A stretch of 64,000 bases of DNA from Liolophura sinensis. Its lineage: Eukaryota > Mollusca > Polyplacophora > Chitonida > Chitonidae. Under the pieces are notes generated by a model, which was not told where the DNA came from, searched no databases, and saw only the letters and a program-made list of their open reading frames with translations. Position numbers and translations under genes: made by a program. The stretch lies in the NCBI RefSeq assembly GCF_032854445.1, contig NC_088300.1, forward strand, positions 41,444,458 through 41,508,457, written 5' to 3'. Numbering within the stretch: position 1 is the stretch's first letter; the number at the start of each line of letters is the position of its first letter. This document shows, in pieces, positions 35,976 through 63,890 of the stretch.

Positions 35976-36329
35976 AAGCTAAACTGGTTACGTTTAAAAT
36001 TCGGAAGTTTAAACACGAGAGTGTATCAAGTGATACATCTTTATTAAATAACTTTTTTTTTAATTTCTAAAATAAATTTTTCATGTACTATGACATATGA
36101 ATAGAGCTTGGACTGAACGAGAAATCCTGAAAGCATTTCCATCGCAACCATAATGCGCTTGAGACCCACACACACGTCTCTAAAACATAACTGAAAACTT
36201 GTAAATAACTTGTTTATTTGACTAATTTGTGAGAGCAAATATTCTAACGCATCTGGTATCTGACAAAAACTAAGCCAATGCATAGCCAGTTTTCAGAAAC
36301 ATGCCTGTTGCATAGGCCCTGTTAAATAC

Positions 36330-36512
36330 TTCTGGTATGTTTTATTACTGCTGGTATGTTGCATTACTGCAGGTATGTTGTATTATTTCCGGTAGGTTGT
36401 ATTACTGCCGGTATGTTGCATTACTGGTGGCATGTTGTATTACTGCTGATACCGTTGCATTACTGCTGGTATGTTGTATTACTGCTGGTATGTTGCATTA
36501 CTGCTGGAATAA
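36330..36512. repeat. 19-bp minisatellite
   Basis: Roughly nine units of TGCTGGTATGTTGTATTAC with small variants. Confidence 0.85.
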
Positions 36513-40284: not shown

Positions 40285-40690
40285 AAGTGGCCTAGGAGTT
40301 TGGGTATAAATGTTGAAGCGGGCAGCTATCTATGGTCTTTAGCATACATGTATATGGACGTGTAGACTTACCTAGGAATTTTGGTACAAACGTTTAAGGG
40401 GACAGCTATCTATGGATTTTCACATACATGTATGTGGGTGTGTACACTTACCTAGGAGTTTTGGTACACACGTGAAAGCGGACAGCTGTCCATGGGTTTT
40501 ATCATACATGTATATGTGCGTGTACACTTACCTAGGAATTTTAGTACACATGTGGAAGGGGACAGCTATATATGGGTTTTCACATACATGCATGTGGGTG
40601 TGTACTTACCTAGGAGTTTTGGTGCACACGTGGAAGCGGACAGTTATCCATGGGTTTTAGCATACATGTATGTGGGTGTATACACTTACC
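40285..40690. repeat. ~81-bp tandem array carrying copies of an exon 3' end and donor
   Basis: About five units of ~81 bp; older copies extend left to about 40100. On the minus strand each unit ends ACCAAAACTCCTAG|GTAAGT, matching the end of meteorin-like exon 2 (ACCAAAACCCATAG|GTAAGT at 40690/40689). Plus-strand ACTTACC motifs lie near 40367, 40449, 40529 and 40605, besides the real donor at 40685-40690. Confidence 0.85.
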
Positions 40691-41169
40691 TATGGGTTTT
40701 GGTATAAGGTTTCCTGTTCTAACATCGATAATCCTGTTTAAATTATAGCTGCCTCCATCCTTGGTCAAGCAGACCTCGAACGCATCTGAGGAACTCCTCC
40801 GTTCGAAGACCACACGGAGGTTACCTTCTGGGTAGTTCCAAAAGACTGATCCCTCCGCGCAATCTTTGTTGGTGTGAATAGTCATGGTGTTACCAATGCT
40901 AGGACCTCTGTACAAAAAGATGTATCCATGCATGAAGCACCACACTAAAAGCACGTCTCTGTCACATGTTAATACAAAGCACTCCAGGAATCAACAATTT
41001 CTCACGTGACGTTTAGAAAATCAGGAGTTTTATATCAGAGACTGTGATCCCATTATAGCCTGTCCGGTAATTAAGCTACCGGCAGAAAGCAAAACAATGA
41101 AATCAACTTCGAAGATTTTTTACCCTTACAGCGTTTTTTTCAGATTTCAGATTTGTGTATATGCTTAGC

Positions 41170-44006: not shown

Positions 44007-46790
44007 GATTGTCGAACGCCTAATCATGTAATAGCGTCTAATCATGATAAAACGCTGTGCTTAATCGTGTAACAGCACCTAATCATGGGAAAGCGCTGCG
44101 CCTAATCGTGTAACATCACCTAATCATGTTAAAATGCTGCATTTAATCGTGTAACTGCGACTAATCGTGTTAAAATACGGCGACTAATCATGTAACATCG
44201 CTCAATCATGGTAAAACCCTGCGCCTAATCGTGTAAGAGTGCCCGACAATGGGAAAAGTGTGCGCTTAATCGTGGAACCTCGCTAATTGTAAAATATTGC
44301 CCAGTTTGTTTTAAATAACGATGCTGTTACATAGATGATATTAACTTCTAACATAAAACAAAAAAATAAATGAAAATTAAAGATTTATATTATTCAAATC
44401 TTTTTAACTGAATCCAATCCATAAACCCTGCATCGATACCAGCAGTAGTATCAGAATTTTTTTCTTTCCATTTCCATAGGCTTAAATCATGTTTAACTGA
44501 CATAATGAATACTTTTACACACTGAAATATTTAGGACGTATTTTGACTATGCTACAACACTGTTGTTGTGGTAAACAATATACGCATCATTTCGTACTGT
44601 TACGTATATATGACGTAACATATATGTAAGCGCAAGGTTACCACCAGAGAGTCGGGTACGGGACACTGAACCGTTAGCATCCAGTGATATACCTTCCTAC
44701 CAGAATAAAATCAGCCCTCTAGACAAAGCTTCTATAGCTTCATTTCTCGGCCTGATAATATAAACCGTTGGTTATTATTGTCTTGAAACCAATGAAACAT
44801 GGTAGAAATATGGATTTGCCAAATCACGGATTAAAAAGGGTCATAGGAGATCGAATCTTCTTTGCAAATGACTTTCGAAACATGGAATTAGTACCATTTG
44901 ATATGTTTATGAATGAAGACATGAAGTGACGCCATCAAACCTGTAGCTACTCTCTGGTTAGAAACAAAGTCAAGTCAGAATATTGATCACAATATACATA
45001 TATACGCTTTGCAAGTACCACACCAAAAACCTTTCCCCATATCTGTGGTTATCACTGTAACCATATAAAGTAAGCACCAGCTACTCACATTTCTCCATGC
45101 GTGTGACAAGCACGAACCACATTTCCCCATACGTGGAACAAGCACGAACCACATTTCCCCACGCGTGTAACAATTACGAACCACATTTTCCCGTCTGTTG
45201 TAAACATGTCACATTTCTACATGTCTGTAAAAAGCATATCTCACATTTCTACAAGTCTGTATTAAGCATGTCACATTTCTACATGTCTGTAGTAAGCATA
45301 TATCACATTTCTACAAGTCTGTAGTAAGCATGTCACATTTCTACATGTCTGTAGTAAGCATGTCACATTTCTACATGTCTGTAGTAAGCATATATCACAT
45401 TCCTTAAAGTCTGTAGTAAGCATATGTCACATTTCTACATGTCTGTGGTAAGCATATGTCAAATTTTTTTCGTGTATAGTAAGCATCTGTTACACTTCTA
45501 CATGTCCAGTGAGTATTTGTCGCATTTTCCAATGCCGGTAGTACAGGTACACTGGAACACAATAGTCACAATTCCCACCACTCATTGGCACGTAAAGGGT
45601 TAAAAATACATTTTCACATTACCTCTTTAGTCAGCATCAATCATAGTGGCGGGTTTTAATGTAAGGAAATTGATATAGGTTGGCTTATAGTTACTATTCT
45701 ATTGATTTGCTGTTAACCTCACACTTGTTCTCCTATACCTTGACCCACACTTATATGGACGGAGGAAACCTGGGCAAACTTGTGGCAAGTTACTTACATG
45801 TACAGAAAAAGTGTGGCACGCCATGATGGAAGACAAATGGTCGTCAACGAAGGTTGACGATAAGACTGGGTAAACGAAACCGCGGACGTCACTGACCGCT
45901 TTTTGCCACAAACTAATATAATTTAAGGAAACAATGAGGGCGGGGAGGTGTAGAAATTCCCTGTTCAATTACAGCTGAGCCACGTCTCGCTATTTCAGTT
46001 ACCAGTTTAAATGTTGTTTACAATCTCAGATGGCTGTACACGGGATACAAGTACAGCTGCGGATAAATACCCTAAGTCCCTTTTCCATACATAAGAGTTC
46101 AAGAAGGTGGCAACTGTTTAACAGATTCTTTAATCCCCATACTGTACTGCATATAGTCAAAATACGACCTATGGATATTTAAGATTTAAAATTTAAAGGG
46201 ATGTCAGTTAAACATGATTTTTAAAGCTTCTAGAAAATGAGAAAAAAAATAATTCTAATGATACTTTTGCTGGTATCGATGCAGGGATTATGGATTGAAT
46301 TCATTTAAAAAGATTTGAATAATATAATTCTTATAAGTACTTATAATATAAGCTCCGGAATGTACCGTTATTTTTTGTTTGTTTTACGTAACAAGTTAAT
46401 TTGACTTATCTGTCAGCATCGCCATCCACAACATACTGGACAATAGTTCAGTAGCGAGGTTCCACGATTAAGCACACTCTTTTACCATTGATGGGCGCCG
46501 TTACACGGTTAAGCGCAGAACTTTACCTTGATTAGGCAATGTTATTTACATGATTAGGATACGCATTTAACAAGGTTAGGCGCAGTTACACGATTAAACG
46601 CAGCATTTTACCATGATTATGCGCTGTTACACGATTAAGACCAGCGTTTTACCATGATTAGGCGCTATTACACGATTAGGCGCAGCGTCTTACCACGATT
46701 AGGAGCTGCTACACGATTATGCGCAGAGTTTTACCATGATCTGGCGCGGTTATACAGTTCGGCGAATTACACAATTAGGTGCTCGACAGG
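44007..46790. mobile_element. Foldback-like element with inverted arrays of a 41-bp repeat
   Basis: The left arm (about 44007-44320) is a direct array of a ~41-bp unit (CCTAATCGTGTAACAGCACC TAATCATGG then TAAAACGCTGCG). The right arm (about 46425-46790) is the same array in reverse orientation (TTTTACCATGATTAGGCGCT ATTACACGATTAGGCGCAGCG). Arm borders also match when one is inverted: the outer ends read TGTCGAACGCCTAAT and TGTCGAGCACCTAAT; the inner ends share CTTAATCGTGGAACCTCGCTA then TATTG.CCAGT.TGTT. The homology therefore extends past the repeats, so these are true long inverted terminal repeats. The ~2.1 kb core has a 32-bp minisatellite but no recognisable transposase. I could not identify a convincing target-site duplication. 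Confidence 0.7.
45075..45540. repeat. 32-33-bp minisatellite
   Basis: About 13-14 units. The first four resemble CACATTTCCCCATACGTGGA ACAAGCACGAAC; the rest are CACATTTCTACATGTCTGTA GTAAGCATATGT. It lies in the core of the foldback-like element. Confidence 0.85.
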
Positions 46791-48342: not shown

Positions 48343-50081
48343 ATGTTGAAGCTGGGGTTGATTGTTCTGGCCAGTGCAACCGTATGCTTTGGTCAGTCTC
48401 TATTTGGTGACAAATGTACCTTGTGGCCAATACGGTAAGCCATCAGTTAAATTAAGGCCATTTTGGAATTCTCTCGATTCCATATGAGCCCATTTGCATG
48501 CAATTGTGGGTCATGCACTACATTCATTATGAAACTTAATATACCTTCAGTAAGAATTTATCGGGTACCTAGAACAATATATACCAAATTGTTTTTTAAG
48601 ATCTGTCTGCTTACTGAAAACTGGTTTGAAAAGTATTATACTTTTTCATCTTAACTGGTATGGATTGGTATCCAGTTGTCTGTATCTTGACACTGTCTAC
48701 ATGTATTAACCGATGGTACGAAGACCATTTGGGGGTGGTTCCTGCTCAGTTTCAATAAATAAATCTCACGAGACTGTTGACGTTTGAAGTGCGCCTGATC
48801 ATCAGATCTGCTGTCGCATCCTTTCACTCATTGAAACCACTTCTACTAAAATATTTCACAACAGATTTTTACCCTCCGCTGAAGCTGGTTGACGGTGTAG
48901 TATTAGGCTTAGGGGTATACGCAATCCTAACTAACCTCGATAATGTCAAATTCAGGATTCCGTTTTGATCATTTAAAATTACGTCTTTCTTCTCGAAATA
49001 AATAATGCATATCGAACATTTCTGCTTGGACAGTGGACCAGAAGTAAGCGCCAATAAGGACTGTTCCTATGGTAACGTCTGGTGGGACTATCCGAGTGGC
49101 AATCTTAGTGTCAAATTCGAGCAGAATGGTCCATCAACAAGTTTCGAAGTGTGTCTGTCATCTGAGGGCGCTGCCTACCTGATTGACGGCATTTATGACG
49201 AGAGCAACGGGGCAAACGTACCTATCCCGACTGAAGGTAAATCTATTAGTCGAATTTATGATGCACAGTATCAGGCGTGAAAATACGCTTTGGTAAACCA
49301 AATTTTTTTTCCTGCGTCAAACAGCTCTCAGGTGCTTTCGCTGTCATGTAGGCCTATATCAATCGGTCAGTCTGTCGGCTATTCCGTCATTCGGTTAGTT
49401 GGCTCGTTCACACTGCTGACATTCTATCTTAGAATTGCGAATTTGCGCTTTTTTGGAAAATGTGTACATATATAACCCCACATGTACAGTCATCTTGCAT
49501 ATTCAATTTTAACTGCTTTTTGTTTAATCAATGCGGAAGCTGTTTCGAATCTACTCGCATCTTTTGGCTCATCAACTGATCTAACGATGTACTGCAAGCC
49601 AAGCAGCACTGACCAGCTCGACACGGCAATACCTTATTAAATCTGGTCTCAGGTTCATTCGTGAAGGTGCTTCGAATCTAACTCCCCCTCCTTCGGCGAC
49701 CTCACGAAGTCAAGAGAATTGCCAGGTGCCTGGTGAGGCCCGAATGTTTCTCGGGACACTGTTTTGCTTCTTCTATCCATAAATTATGACAGTTGTCGAA
49801 TAAATCAAGAGCCATATTCATCAGCAAGGCGTCAAATACGAATGTTTTTGTACAGGTGACACTGAGTATGAGGACTAGCTATTGTATATAGTTTTCCTTG
49901 GAATAACACAAAATTTGAAAAACTGTAACCACAGGCAGTTATTTTCTGTAATGTGTGTTTTTCGATTACAGGCTCTCCCTCCTGTGTGAATAGCGTGGAC
50001 GGCAAGGTCATTCTCTGCTTCCGGGCCAGTGACACGTTGTATTACATGGCGCTAATGCCTTACAAAATAAGCCACTCATAA
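48343..50081 (+). CDS. Small secreted meteorin-like protein, 134 aa, complete
   Basis: Three exons (48343-48434, 49034-49236, 49972-50081) with GT/AG junctions and phases 2 and 1. The signal peptide is MLKLGLIVLASATVCFG. The mature part holds five Cys: DKC, NKDC, FEVC, SPSC and VILC. The pattern C..G.V.W.YP.G.L.V followed by VCL, then SNGAN and CF...... LYYMALMPYKI, follows the order seen in the first ~110 mature residues of vertebrate meteorin/METRNL (their CUB-like part). It lacks the long C-terminal part (vertebrate proteins are ~290-310 aa). Paralogue of the minus-strand gene at 40.7 kb, arranged divergently. Meteorins are secreted neurotrophic or immune factors; whether that role holds here is unknown. 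Family assignment is from remembered patterns and is moderate; the gene model itself is strong. Confidence 0.8.
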
Positions 50082-51890: not shown

Positions 51891-54800
51891 TCATCTTGCT
51901 GACTTCATAGGCTCCCCAAGCAAAAACCTGTAACCATAAAAAACACAGTATTCAATGCGACAAGTGACAAAGATGTCCACAATATCGGATCTTCTTCCTC
52001 TTGAAATTCATTTTCGACCTAATATAACTTCAATACACCCAATCACACAGTATACACATACAATTACACAAGAGAAAACTATACATCAATCTACAACATG
52101 GTATATTTAGTAGACATGATTTCTGATGTATTCCCTGACGATGATTGCAACATCTTCATTTTCTGCGTTCATTCTAGTCAATCTCAGCCGAACAAGAAAC
52201 CTTCTTGATGCATTACTTACCATTCTCCTCTAGCATTGGCCTTGATGCATTACTTACCATTCTCCTCTAGCATTGACCTTGATGTGTAACTTACCATTCT
52301 CCTCTAGCACTCATCTTGATGTGTAATTTACCATTATCCTCTAGCAATGACATTAATGCGTAACTTACCATTCTCCTCTAGCACTGACCTTGATGCGTAA
52401 TTTACTATTCTCCCCTCGCACTGACCTTGATGCGTAACTTACCACTGTCCTCTAGCATTGACCTTGATGTGTAACTTACCATTCCCCTCTAGCAATGACT
52501 GCTTCTTTCCTCACTAGGCGCTTGTGGTCATCCAATGCTGGTTCCAGGGCTCGTATCACCTTTGACTTGTGAGGCATTATCACATGAGGGGGAAGGTGGG
52601 TGAATGAGGACAAACATTTCAAAGCTCCTATCCTCACTTTCTGCGAGGAAATGAAAAGTATTTTAATCTTTCATGTTTGAGTTCCAATGGTCAGGCGATA
52701 AAATAATGCTTGTGTGTAGTATCCGTTTAGTTTAACACAATCAATACATGAGGGAGAAATTTTTAAGACAAAAACAAATTCATAACCACATTTTCTGCTC
52801 AATTTACTTAAATACATATATTTGAATGCTAAATTTTTAGCTGTGACAAGCACCTCTAAAATATCTCTGTTTTTTAGTCAAATTTTTGTTATCCTATCTT
52901 TTGTTCCATGAGTGCGAGATAACATTGACGTTTTGAGGGATGCTGCAGCTCTTATGAGTTTTCACCTGTTATGCATCAGAAACCTATCAACAACCCAAAC
53001 TACTTCATACATGTCCTTCCTACCACATGACCTAAGGTTAATAAAAAATTCTATAAATTTCCTGCAAATTATGTGCCAATGAATAATTTTTTACGTCACC
53101 AGAGATTGCAAAATCTCGCAAAAACTATATCAACACTCAGAATACATGAACATAGTATTACCATTGTTTGACCTTTACATGACAGCTTCAGCAGCTGTGG
53201 CATTAAAGAGTCAACATGTTTGGAGATGAGGTCTGGGGCATCAGTGATCAAACTACGGAGTGTGGACAGGTTGGCTAACTGCAGGTCTATGTCATCACAC
53301 AGCAGGGAGTGCACCATCAAGGGAGCTAACTGCAACAAGTTCAAAATAGTTTCATGTACAGTACAATCATAGCATGAAAGATATTGTTTTTTTAATGGTT
53401 AACAGTATTTTTTAGTATCTAGGATTTTCTTAGTTCAAACAGGAAAAAGTATCAGGCAGTGTATGATGTGATACTTACTGAATATTTCATAAAATCTCAA
53501 AAATGTCAAATTTACAGGCAAAACAAAAAGCATGGAAAGTGACTGAGAACAGATTTTTATAAAAACTTACAGTGTTTGCTTCTGTGAGTAGGACTTGTTT
53601 TGGAACAAATGTCACGAGATGGGACAGAGCCAGCAGGTAGTGCTTCTTGTTATCTGTTTGAAGAGATAATAGCAAAAGTATCTAATTAAAATGGTTCCTA
53701 GCGAAGATCTTCACATCACCGTGGTGTGTACACAAGCAAAACTAAGACCTGAATAACACTATAGGGACAAATGTAAAAAATAAGGAATACATCAATGCAA
53801 AACAGTTTCCAAATATTTAATGTAGATAATATCTGTCATCACACAACAGAGAGTGCACTGTCAGGGGAAATAATTGTAAGAGACACAGAATAAAATCTCA
53901 CCGTGCTGAGTTTTGTTAAAGCCCTGCACAAGTTTGGGCAAGTTTTCAATGAAGATTCTCTGTCTGTACATAAGCTTGACATAAGCTTGTTGAGCCAGGG
54001 TCATTACATCATCACACTCCTGGAGTAGCACCCTAAAACCATCAGCCGCTGTACATCCCAGCTCAGTATCCTCCAGACAAGACACAATCTGAGGGGAAGA
54101 AATGTGGACAATATAATTAGAGGCCACTCAGACAATATAAACTGAGGCTACAAGGACATCATAAACAGAGGGAATATCAACACAAATAGTGATATCATGA
54201 GCATAAACATGAAAAAGATAAACAGAAACAACATAACATGAACACAAACAACATGAACAAGATATGCAGAGGCAACATGAACAGAAGCAACATGAAGAAT
54301 AACGAATGCAACATGAACAACATAAACAAGATACGCAGAGGCAACATGGACAACATGAACAGAGGCAACATCAATAAAATGAACAGAGGCAACATCAACA
54401 AGATGAAAAGAGGCAACATGAACAACATGAACATAAGCCACATGAACAAGATTAGCACACAATCAACATGAAAAGAAGCAACATGAACAAGGAAATCTGA
54501 AGCAACATAAACACAATCAACATGAACAAGACAAACAGATGCAACATCAACAACACTGAGTATTTTAAAGAACAAAACTGTCTTTTTTCAGTAGAGCTAT
54601 ATGTTTTGAATATTTCTTGACACACGTTGCCTATACATGTAAGATGAACCTTGATTGTGTATTTTGTGAAGTTAGCTACGAAATGGTGAGATGCTACTCA
54701 CCTGACTTATGAGGTCACTAGAAAAAGGGTGACCACGCAATACCAAAGCTTTAGTCAACCAGATTATTGCGGTCAAAGCTCTGCATCTCTCACTTTGGTT

Positions 54801-57800
54801 CATTTTTGATGTGACTACTTCGGATAGTCTCCCCTTTAACTTTGACGCCACTGATCCTAACTCCTGCTCTGTAAAATGTAAAACAGAAGTAAACATTGGC
54901 TGCATAAATCAACTTCAGGTCACAGAAAGACAAGAATCAAGCTTTGATTTTGAAGATGAAAAGATTAACTTTCACACTATTTGAGACTATAAACTTTACA
55001 CAATCCCAGACTTTTCCTACTTGAATAAGTAGTCTTACACGTCGCTACCAGCAGTTTCACATATATACTGAGCTCGCTCTGTCCGTTAGAATCAGTGTCA
55101 AATGATGGAATTTTCACCAGTCAGCTCCCAAAGACCACTGGATTGCTTCAGGCACTCATATTCCACACCCTGTCTCAATGTTTTCCCAGTGACAGAGCTT
55201 GGACTCATGGCAAATCATTGTACAACAGCATCAGTCCCTCACAACTAGGCTTATCTGCAAGTGTCTACAACCCCCAACACATTTGGCTGATGACTCACAG
55301 GTAAATGAGTGAGGATTCTTCGGGGCCAGGTTTGTCAGCTTCCCTATTAGCAAAAGTTTCTCACAAACAGATTTAACATCAGATATCTTGTTGACTAGAC
55401 CCCCAATACATTTGGCAGCTGACTCGCAGGTAAATGAGTGAGAATTCTTCAGCGCCAAGTCTGTCAGCTACCCTGTTAGCACAAGTTCCTCACAAACACT
55501 TACCATCAGGTATCTTGTTGACTAAACCTCCAATACACTTGGCTGCTGAGTCACTGGTAGCCGCGTGAAGATTCTTCAGGGCTAGGTCTGTCAGTTTCTC
55601 TAACAGCTCTGCCTCTTCTTTCAGTCTATCCTGTGTGGCCACAGTAACAAATAACACAGGCATGTCCCACATGATCTATTTTTTTTTTTTTTACATAATA
55701 TGAGTAATTACTAAACATGTACTTAAATTTGTTATTTGTTATTATTACTACTAATATTATTACTACTACTTTAAAAACTTTTATTATTACTACGTGTTAT
55801 CACCAATACATACATCAATCATGCTTGAAAGTCCTGACTGGATTTAGAGACATGATCTGGATTCAGCACTGTACCAATACTCAGCATTACATCGTGAACA
55901 GGAAATCAGATTAAACTAATGAGGATTATATCTGAACGTTTGACGGTTCAGAAAACTTTCATCATTTCTGGAAAGAGCACATTAAAACATGTAAACATTC
56001 ACAGTGTTACATTAGGTCAATTGTGATAAATTCAGATTGACCGTTAATATCATTTACCTCTTTAGGTAAGGAGCACACTACTGCAGTCAATACACAAACA
56101 AGCTGAGACTGTTTCCATGGTGATGAAACCTGCAAAAAACAACATCACTGTTAGCACTGCTATCACAACATTTAAGGTAAATCAGTGAAATGAGTTTATA
56201 ACACCAGCAACACCTGGTACATTAGTTTTAGGACTCGGCAATTTCTTTTACTTATTTGACTGGTGCAATGCACTGTGCTCAGGAATACTTACCATACCTA
56301 ATGGCATCCACCATTATAGTTGGAGGAAAATAAGCAGAGCTTTGCGCAAACAATGGCCACCTGCAGGTTGCTGCAGGAGCTTCCCCACATACAACCAGGG
56401 AGTAAGCCAGCATGAGCTGGACTGGAACTCAAAGAGATTGTGTTAGTGAGAACCTTCTGAGTCCTAGTGCTGGGCTAGCATGTTAAACACTTGGCAGGGA
56501 AGACCTACTACTAGGCAGGGCATCTCAATAAAATGTAAGAGAATGGTAACTTCTGGAGAAAGCAACATTAGACTTGAATGGTATCAGGGAGTTACTTAAG
56601 AATGTTTTTTTTATATATTTCAACAGACATTAACATGTAGAAAGTTAATGAAAACTAATTTATCGGAATTTATTTCAATTTATCAGAATATAAATTCCAT
56701 AAACATGTATGTGCATACTTGCAGTCCAATATAGTATTTTTTTCAGCTCGTGAGAAAAATACTTTGTGAATATAAAAAGACTGCTGTGAAAACTAGTACA
56801 AAGAAATTCCCCTGATTACTTACAGAGAGAGGCTGAAATGGCATATCAAGTTTGATATTGTAATCCCTTATAGAGGCAGGCAGGGTCCCTTGTAAAAACA
56901 GATCCACCATAGCAGTGGAGAAGTCCTTGCTCTCACTGAAACACAAGTGTACGTTTTTTGGTACTAAAAATAATATAAAATGAAGAAAAATACTATGGAA
57001 AATCAATAGTATACTGAAAATCAAAATACTGAAATCAATTTGACCTAACATTAAAAAAAAAAATGTTTGAAAGTTACATCTGGTAGCAAGGCTTCCACAG
57101 AGTTAGTCTGTAGGAGACTCATGGATGCAAAATTTCAGCTCAGTACAGAAAGCATTTAATACATGTAAATGGCAATTTAATTACCACACATGAAGACATC
57201 ACATGAATGATTTACATGTCCATGTATGCGAAACCTGAGCTCAATACATGCAATACTTTTGAGATCCCACCTCTAACACTTACCTTAAAACTGATTCCAA
57301 ATCGTAAATTTGTAACACGGGGCGCCAATGATGAAACAGCCGCCTCATGTTATTTGTTACCACCCATAACATTTACCATACTTTTGGTTTCAGTACACAA
57401 GAGGCTAAGATGATGGAACATCCTCTTCATGCCACTGTCCTTTACCCGTATGCAAAATGTGCGATCAATACAGGCAGTACTTTCTAAGATACCCTCCCTA
57501 ACATTCACACTAGTATTGCTCTTACTGTGATAGAATGCGAACAATCCGGGCATTACATTAGTTATGCTGTACTTTGGATATTAGCCAAGATAAACTTTAC
57601 CTGTAGAACACCTGTTCACCGTATTTGACAGAAGAGAAAAAAAACAACTCCTGAAAACAGTATACATGTAAGTAAAAAAAACCATTCACATTAAATTTGA
57701 AAACTTTGTCTTCTTACCTTTTAACACTGCTTTCTAGATTATTTCTGTCAATCCACATGTTTCCCAATGTTAACATATACGAGATAGTGCTGCCTCAGTG

Positions 57801-60800
57801 GATCATTAGCCAAAGACATGTCATGACACCTTAACCTGTCACAGCATAATGACACTGACAACTGGCTGACCAATACTTGCCCTGTCCCATTTATGTGGAG
57901 TGCCCAGCTAGACAGACACATACAAATAATTAATATTCCTATATACCCCTATCAATGAATTACCTTTTCGAGAGCTTTGTCATTAAAATCTGTACAGCTT
58001 TTGCGACGTTCTTCACAGCAGCATCAGAGTGGAGGAGAGAGCTAGTCTGAGGTTGGACGGCCTGGCTGACCAGGAGTCCTACCAGTTCAGGGATGGTGAC
58101 GGACAGACAGTACTGGACCACGGAGGCAGAGGTCATCATCTTCTCCATCACACGGTATATACACTCACACACACACACAGCACAGTCCTCCATGTCACCA
58201 CTATTGGATTCTGTTGACACAAAAGTTACAATCGTCAACATGACTACTTATAATGACAAACACACACCTGCACAACCTAGAGTCACTAAGCAGGGCCTCA
58301 GGAGGAGGGTATTTCACCCGAAGTTTGGAATGCAAAATTACACTCTCAGAAGCACATACAAGCCTAAAAATTATAATTTTCATTTCTCCACATAAGTTTT
58401 CATGAGAACAAATTGACCCAACTTCACAAATAACTCTTTAAGGTACCCTACAGCATAGGTGAATTATTCAGTATCAAACAAAACGTGTCACTTAAAAAAT
58501 GTTTAACTCTGAATGAAATACAGTACTTCATATAAATGTACAGTGTTCAACTGATATAAGCTGCCTTATTATAATTTATTTATTTCTGATGACCCAACGT
58601 CCAGAAGACAAAATAACCTGAGTCTATGATGCTACATGCAAGACAGAGATAATAGTAAATCTGCAAGATTGTACCAAAATACGTGCCCATGTAAGAGCGA
58701 AAAAGTTAAAAGCATGAAAGAGATAACTTTTAAGACAGATGTAAACATAAAAAGAAACAATGTCAGTTTAAGACGAGTATGGATAATATGTGACACTATT
58801 ATAAACAGATTAAAGGATTAAACTGTGTGCTTGTTATGTAATACTAACCTCTGGATAAGTATTTCAGATACTTAATAAATTCTGGCAGTACATTAAGTAC
58901 AATATTTTCATGTGTTGCTATGGATACCATGGTCTGCAGACAGAAGACATTGTTACACAATGAAGGATTTTGTCCATCAGTTTCCATGTGAACTACAATG
59001 AAAGAAGCATGACACATTGAACAGTGATTATCAAGCAATAAATACTAATAAATAAATAAACCGCATGAACGATTTAAATTTATATCTTGAAATTTCCTTA
59101 TTTCTAATATTCACATTTTAACAGTGATTTGAAACAAACTACATACTGAAAAAGTTTGTCTTACTTGGATATGCATGGATACTCAACAGATGTAAGAAAG
59201 ACCAACTGGCCTGTTTTAAATCAACCCACAGACGGAGAGTTTTACTGTCTGCCACTTTTCCAGAGTAAGTAATAATGAAAGGGGAGAAGAATTCATTACA
59301 TTAAGGTGTAAGTAGAGTTGATTAAATTAATTTTGTTCATATTTACAAAGTTGATGCGTGATATATATTCCATGTACTTCTTTATACTGGTAAATTATCT
59401 TCCCTTGATACAGGAAACCAGACAATTGTCTGTGAACACTAAAGGCACCTGACTTCACTCACCTGATTCTGCATGAAGGGAGTTAACCAGAGCTGGTATC
59501 ACTCTGTCTACGACCACAGAAGGGGAGGAGGCCCTAAACATGACAAGCTGTGTTCACTCGATGCCCTGTAAACACACAAATACATGCACAACGGCAAGAT
59601 CTACAAGTACATGTATGTCTCTCCTGATGTATGTCTCTCAACACAAAAATCTTACTGGATATATAATTTGATTGGTATGTAACATCATACTAAAAAAATT
59701 ATGACTTATATGACAGCCGTCCGGTTAATGGGTGGGGAAATTGGAATGGGAAGGGTTAATTCCCAACCTTATCCATGTACCTGATGTAAACTACAAACCT
59801 TATCAACGTACTTGATGTAAACTACCAGCATTATCCTTGTACCTGAAGTAAATTACCAGCCTTATCCTTGTACCTGATGTAAACTACCAGCCTTATCCAT
59901 GTACCTGATGTAAACTACCAGCCTTATCCACGTACCTGATGTAAACTACCAACCTTATCCACGTACCTGATGTAAACTACCAACCTTATCCATGTACCTG
60001 ATGTAAACTACCAACCTTATCCTTGTACATGAAGTAAACTACCAGCATTATCCATGTACCTGATGTAAACTACCAGCCTTATCCACGTACCTGATCTAAA
60101 CTGCCAGCCTTAACCACGTACCTGATGTAAACTACCAGCCTTATCCACGTACCTGATGTAAACTTCCAAACTTATCCACGTACCTGATGTAAACTACCAG
60201 CCTTATCCACGTACCTGATGTAAACTACCAGCCTTATCCACGTACCTGATGTAAACTACCAGCCTTATCCACGTACCTGATGTAAACTTCCAACCTTATC
60301 CACGTACCTGATGTAAACTACCAGCCCTATCCACGTACCTGATGTAAACTACCAGCCTTATCCACGTACCTGATGTAAACTACCAGCCTTATCCTTGTAC
60401 CTGAAGTAAACTACCAACCTTATCCACGTACCTGATGTAAACTACCAGCCTTATCCATGTACCTGATGTAAACTTCCAACCTTATCCACGTACCTGATGT
60501 AAACTACCAGCCTTATCCACGTACCTGATGTAAACTACCAGCCTTATCCACGTACCTGATGTAAACTACCAGCCTTATCCACATACCTGATGTAAACTAC
60601 CAGCCTGAATCCACGTACCTGATGTAAACTACCAGGCTTATCCACGTACCTGATGTAAACTACCAGCCTTATCCACGTACTCCACACACACACACAAATT
60701 TAAAGCAGCAGCCAAAACAGCAAACACTTGATTCAAGCATGCAACTGCACTGGTCAACAGTCTGATGGTCACAGGACAACAGTGCTTTAACCATCTCAGC

Positions 60801-62969: not shown

Positions 62970-63890
62970 ATGTTTTACACATTATATCCAGTACATTATC
63001 TACATTCATACTTTACATGCATGTTTTACACATAATATCTAGTACATTATCTACATTCATATTTGACATGCACGTTTTACACATAATATCTAGTACATTA
63101 TCTACATTCATACTTTACATGCATGTTTTACACATAATATCTAGTACATTATCTACATTCATACTTTACATGCATGTTTTACACATAATATCTAGTACAT
63201 TATCTACATTCATATTTGACATGCATGTTTTACACATAATATCTAGTACATTATCTACATTCATGCTTCACATGTATGTTTTACACATAATATCTAGTAC
63301 ATTATCTACATTCATACTTCACATGTGTGTTTTACACATAATATCCAGTACATTATCTACATTCATACTTTACATGCATGTTTTATACATAATATCTAGT
63401 ACATTATCTACATTCATACTTCACATGTATGTTTTACACATAATATCTAGTACATTATCTACATTCGTACTTCACATGTATGTTTTACACATAATATCTA
63501 GTACATTATCTACATTCGTACTTCACATGTATGTTTTACACATAATATCTAGTACATTATCTACATTCATACTTCACATGTATGTTTTACACATAATATC
63601 TAGTACATTATCTACATTCGTACTTCACATGTATGTTTTACACATAATAACCAGTACATTATCTACATTCATACTTCACATGTATGTTTTACATATAATA
63701 ACCAGTACATTATCTACATTCATACTTCACATGTATGTTTTACAAATAATATCCAGTACATTATCTACATTCATACTTCACATGTATGTTTTACAAATAA
63801 TATCCAGTACATTATCTACATTCATACTTCACATGTATGTTTTACAAATAATATCCAGTACATTATCTACATTCATACTTTACAAGTATA
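62970..63890. repeat. 51-bp minisatellite upstream of an MMS19 acceptor
   Basis: About 18 units of ATGTTTTACACATAATATCT AGTACATTATCTACATTCAT ACTTCACATGT. It starts about 22 bp upstream (in gene direction) of the acceptor of exon 62792-62946. As 51 is a multiple of 3, it yields a 307-codon plus-strand ORF of a 17-residue repeat, which I take as an artefact. Confidence 0.95.

Follow-up and report, generated by a model that had tools for sequence, protein, structure and literature searches.

Array at the end of the penultimate MMS19 exon

The window, i.e., the whole stretch of 64,000 bases analysed here, carries on its minus strand the last exons of a gene recognised as MMS19, in which a 37-bp sequence spanning an exon/intron boundary is repeated in tandem. 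The features concerned are the following (a slash marks the exon end):

52480..52640 (-): penultimate MMS19 coding exon, 161 nt, ending with the ARGEW codons and GAATG (sequence and mouse MMS19 match)
51928..52479 (-): last MMS19 intron, 552 nt if donor 1 is used
51891..51927 (-): coding part of the last exon, FLLGEPMKSAR plus TGA (mouse MMS19 aligns over the junction through FLLG)
52204..52499 (-): tandem array of 8 x 37 bp, each unit being 20 nt of exon tail plus 17 nt of intron head (TRF and unit table)
52499-52463 (-): unit 1, containing the true exon end at 52480 (unit table)
52474..52480 (-): donor 1, G/GTAAGT, the inferred main 5' splice site; read-through TAA stop at 52478-52476
52215..52443 (-): donor-like sites 2 to 8, with the last exon-like base at 52443, 52406, 52369, 52332, 52295, 52258 and 52221

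The identity of the gene, named as MMS19 in an earlier note on this DNA, was confirmed by a search with the peptide encoded by the last three exons, built on an assumed join of the two exons before the last junction that lacks four residues present in mouse. This peptide matched mouse MMS19 (chains 6tbl, E 4.4e-31, and 6tc0, E 5.3e-29), with ARGEWFLLG aligned across the last junction. It also matched PF12460 (MMS19_C) with E 4e-13, covering residues 1-64 of 116 only, while the HEAT matches of the last two exons alone were all sub-threshold. The upstream exons likewise matched mouse MMS19, the joined VNKIPDG and EQELG being in line with mouse LNKQPPGQQLE. An acceptor, TTTCCTCGCAG, was recognised by eye immediately upstream of the penultimate exon. 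By this sequence likeness, the boundary of the penultimate exon is assigned to MMS19.

TRF analysis resolved the array as 8.0 head-to-tail copies of 37 bp with 86% matches, 0% indels and a score of 410. Twenty 64-kb sequences simulated with the dinucleotide statistics of the window scored 57 at best (period of at least 14), and thus the array is regarded as real. It starts inside the penultimate coding exon and extends into the last intron, all extra units being intronic, which agrees with the earlier description of eight units, each made of exon tail and donor, copied from the end of an MMS19 exon into the intron. The range of 52195..52640 assigned to it there needs correction, as the array proper occupies 52204-52499 and positions 52500-52640 are the rest of the exon. 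The first donor had been placed correctly, with its GT at 52479-52478, the exon end at 52480 and the context GAATG/GTAAGT. The GT is kept in all eight units, and the complete heptamer GGTAAGT, as previously counted, in six of them (units 1, 2, 4, 6, 7, and 8); at this position unit 3 reads AGTAAAT and unit 5 GGTAAAT.

Tandem arrays may be assembled wrongly, and the true locus might in principle consist of one or a few units. However, all units differ from one another (78-97% alike), which argues against reads having been placed twice, and the contig that holds the array is at least 41.5 Mb long; an assembly artefact is barely credible here. The similarity is 97% between units 7 and 8 and 78-92% in the remaining pairs, which suggests, from the unit sequences, that the array grew recently at its distal end, as expected from turnover at one end. 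A search of the genome (609,464,459 bases in 632 contigs), in which the best candidates were scored and common words skipped, matched the array at a single place. There was thus no sign of a dispersed element, and a mobile element was rejected as the source of the array on the basis of this one match among the candidates scored. Neither Rfam, at its gathering threshold, nor a tRNA search gave any match in the 64-kb window.

Reading-frame outcome and conservation of the donors

Read-through past donor 1 leads directly into an in-frame TGG TAA, as the earlier note had stated, and hence use of any of donors 2-8, or retention of the intron, gives a protein ending in ...ARGEW. The tail lost with any later donor is FLLGEPMKSAR, which has 11 residues and not the ten formerly counted. 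Since intron retention gives the identical stop, the early stop is a property of donor 1 and not of the array. The proposal that the bank of donors has one outcome is valid for the protein but not for the RNA, where the distance from stop to junction is 33, 70, 107, 144, 181, 218, and 255 nt for donors 2 to 8, respectively. Nonsense-mediated decay follows a rule of 50-55 nt between stop and junction, which may not hold in this species; under this rule, the RNA from donor 2 would escape decay and those from donors 3-8 would not.

The calculated pairing with the 5' end of U1 was -9.1 kcal/mol for donors 1, 2, 4, and 6 and -10.7 kcal/mol for donors 7 and 8, and was weak for donors 3 (-1.8 kcal/mol) and 5 (-5.3 kcal/mol). 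Donor 1 is therefore not the strongest by this measure, which argues against simply assuming that the first donor prevails. A role of RNA structure in hiding or exposing donors was also considered and rejected, as the fold of 52195-52540 was no better than those of 100 shuffles (z 0.59; 68 of the 100 folded at least as well).

Deviations from the majority letter were found in 3 of 56 cells in the donor columns (-1 to +6) and in 26 of 296 cells in the whole unit. Ten of the 37 circular seven-column windows, the donor's own included, deviated as little as the donor's when all units were compared, and 14 of 37 when only units 2-8 were, and column shuffles of units 2-8 showed the donor columns to be no better conserved than the others (P = 0.38). 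The heptamer is intact in five of the seven extra units, where 3.7 of seven would be expected at the mean deviation rate. These data gave no clear sign that the donors were either kept or purged; since conservation is no higher in the donor columns than elsewhere in the unit, there is no indication that the extra donors are under selection, and column conservation offers no support for it. The earlier note had left the choice between neutral slippage and tuning of the amount of full-length MMS19, and on this comparison neutral slippage is favoured.

Other minisatellites in the window and the genome

Minisatellites are abundant in this DNA: 22 arrays of period at least 14 cover 5,187 of the 64,000 bases of the window, and arrays of such period fill 33,775 of 200,000 bases sampled as 20 stretches, not selected for genes, from two contigs (C1 and C2). 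With the sampled genome so rich in minisatellites, an array over an exon end is to be expected now and then. Including the 37-bp array of MMS19, three arrays of the window span a donor, the two others being:

55269-55594 (-): 129-bp array, 2.5 copies, spanning the MMS19 exon end at 55504 and its donor (TRF)
40291-40704 (-): 80-bp array with 5.2 copies, lying across the donor of the exon that ends at 40690 (TRF)

In the 129-bp array, copy 2 reads GATGTTAAATC, with the donor GT changed to TT, and copy 3 is diverged at the donor. The 80-bp array has GGTAAGT at five sites, that of the exon included, and lacks it in the sixth unit; its read-through frame contains a TAG stop immediately before the second of these sites. 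The gene of the exon ending at 40690 was weakly similar to meteorin (24 residues, E 0.22), followed by CD2 (E 0.39), and a Pfam search for this gene gave no match. As three arrays within 64 kb span a donor, the genome appears well suited to the study by RNA-seq of how the spliceosome chooses among near-equal donors. An exon similar by eye to that of the 40-kb gene was also observed in the opposite orientation at 49227-49250 (+), running to GAAG/GTAAAT near 49236, where TRF listed no array and the use of the GT is an assumption.

The targeting of arrays to donors was rejected, since randomly placed arrays overlapped donors equally often, some of the donor positions being estimates. For the eight arrays of the MMS19 region, two donor overlaps were observed against a mean of 2.9 at random [P(>=2) 0.90], and the mean was 1.0 (P 0.26) when only arrays shorter than 500 bp were considered. 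Five of the 11 donor positions used were estimated (58990, 57960, 56900, 53590, and 53245), and compared with the printed exon-tail positions (58847, 57963, 56818, 53577, and 53174, respectively) two were off by more than 80 bases; not all printed tails have a clear donor next to them, and the tail HQTVDQ at 60 kb, which is not a clear exon end, was excluded.

The motif GGTANGT, picked after the data had been seen, occurred in 4 of 21 hand-listed units of window arrays (period of at least 14, the 129-bp array excluded), with a shuffle mean of 0.31 [P(>=3) 0.0026] and no occurrence in the reversed units. Eleven of the 4096 patterns of this form reached at least four of the 21 units, one of them reaching five, and when look-alike arrays were merged to 16, GGTANGT was the sole pattern at four, with 27 patterns at three or more. 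The excess was not repeated outside the window: in the 200-kb sample the motif was found in 1 of 68 arrays, with a shuffle mean of 1.8 (P 0.84) and four in reversed units, and GGTAAGT in none of the 68. A genome-wide enrichment of minisatellites in the donor motif was accordingly rejected; as the sampled stretches had not been selected for genes, this rejection concerns a genome-wide trait and not one limited to genes.

Some further arrays of the window were observed. A 31-bp array at 59763-60680 (-), with about 30 units and a CAG/GTACGT-like donor consensus, lies in the MMS19 region, where it coincides with no recognised exon end, while a 51-bp array at 62970-63889 (-) and a 24-bp array at 54106-54553 (-) end approximately 17-24 bases before MMS19 exon acceptors. 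A 19-bp array at 36327-36507 (+) contains repeated CTGGTATGT. Two 41-bp minisatellites, at 44017-44278 and 46576-46752 and 2.3 kb apart, have consensus units that by eye are reverse complements of each other, and they may belong to one dispersed element.

Known boundary arrays and origin of the MMS19 array

Minisatellite-like tandem duplications of exon/intron boundaries have been described in amphioxus as "mirages", in Adh3, globin (BflGb6 and BflGb9), troponin C and PGBD5 genes (PMC3087553, PMC3902484). In these two reports, the units measure 10-72 bp in Adh3, 150-160 bp in the globins, and 60 and 108 bp in PGBD5, those of BflGb6 are 81-100% alike, and unit number varies among haplotypes. 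Splicing is reported there to be normal, with globin RT-PCR and Adh3 data suggesting no disturbance despite the many units with AG/GT signals. As in the mirages, the units of the MMS19 array cover the end of an exon together with the splice site there, and many, but not all, of them keep the splice signal; the BflGb9 mirage, like the MMS19 array, duplicates the 3' boundary of an exon.

Arrays of a related form are known in human genes. The 31-bp VNTR of CBS at exon 13/intron 13, c.1444_1467+7(16_21), is polymorphic in unit number in people (PMC2630376), and by this notation the exon end and the first intron bases with the donor are repeated 16-21 times. The repetition of exon end and donor is also found in MMS19, although the exon and intron parts of the unit are 24 and 7 nt in CBS as compared to 20 and 17 nt in MMS19. 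The title of Lievers 2001 associates this VNTR with reduced activity, and the flattened table of a review seemingly lists raised homocysteine and, doubtfully, lower activity (PMC1395315); the reduced activity given in the title indicates that some boundary arrays may have an effect. Internal tandem repeats are likewise found in human genes of segmental duplications; these are minisatellites, located in some cases at exon-intron boundaries, and they alter gene structure (PMC2812944).

The mirages lie in other genes, with normal splicing and haplotype length differences reported for amphioxus, unit number in CBS is polymorphic and tied by title to activity, and the repeats of segmental-duplication genes are tied to transcript differences and novel introns, whereas the MMS19 array is known from the DNA of one assembly alone. 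A search of open-licence literature for MMS19 together with minisatellite or VNTR retrieved no MMS19 array by title, the matches dealing with yeast replication fidelity and cisplatin toxicity. Judged by its sequence, the MMS19 array is a further case of the boundary minisatellites already described. Repeats of this type are known but have received little study, and the array provides a clear example at a 5' splice site, in a conserved gene of Fe-S assembly; it is weak as a claim about MMS19 function.

The anatomy of the array, its outcome for the reading frame and the lack of special conservation of its donors are established, and the array is very probably a neutral boundary minisatellite of the mirage type that is spliced mainly at donor 1. 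A 37-bp stretch made up of 20 nt at the exon end and the 17 nt that follow in the intron would have been duplicated and expanded to eight units, presumably by replication slippage or unequal exchange. The splicing machinery would mostly act on donor 1 and yield normal MMS19, while an occasional later donor would give the ...RGEW-stop form, the longer versions of which would probably be removed by nonsense-mediated decay. The extra donors are proposed to persist as copies that have not yet decayed, rather than being kept by selection. Such an origin is supported by the regularity of the 8 x 37-bp array and the position of one of its ends within an exon, by the abundance of minisatellites in the sampled genome and by the amphioxus precedent; against it stand the U1 pairing of donor 1, which is not the strongest, the five of seven intact extra donors as compared to 3.7 expected, and the title on CBS.

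The same observations bear on the tuning of MMS19, in which the extra donors would compete for U1, a share dependent on copy number would go to the short form or to decay, and unit number would set the MMS19 level. The retention of GGTAAGT in five of seven extra units, the better U1 pairing of two donors than of donor 1, the common early stop of all later donors with at least 70 nt before the junction from donor 3 on, and the reduced activity that a title associates with the CBS VNTR would suit this proposal. With donor columns conserved no better than the rest of the unit and amphioxus mirages reported to splice normally (PMC3087553, PMC3902484), tuning is nevertheless unlikely. Far less probable still is that the array represents a step toward a new intron or exon, with a unit serving as an extra exon or splitting the exon, as in a model published for the amphioxus globin mirages (PMC3087553). 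Donors and AG dinucleotides are indeed present in the units, but no pyrimidine tract was seen by eye ahead of the unit AGs, and mouse MMS19 aligns straight over the last junction, so that no extra exon is needed.

A role for the short protein itself is hardly to be expected: the bank of donors would, in some conditions, yield an MMS19 ending in ...ARGEW that occupies the client site of the CIA complex and lowers its activity, with unit number acting as dose. For docking on the CIA targeting complex, Fe-S clients use a C-terminal [LIM]-[DES]-[WF]-COO- motif (PMC10623007), in which the terminal aromatic residue and its carboxylate are the dominant determinants (PMC13082141, a preprint), and Cia2b is bound by the last HEAT repeat of MMS19 (PMC10728100). 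The G-E-W end agrees with this motif at two of three positions, the antepenultimate residue being G and not L, I or M. MMS19 is itself part of the complex to which the client tails dock, and the GEW ending is equally produced by simple retention of the last intron, with or without the array. Yeast met18 (MMS19) mutants are described as mutators on GC-rich genes (PMC8191807), so that any repeat lowering MMS19 might have an influence on how stable repeats are.
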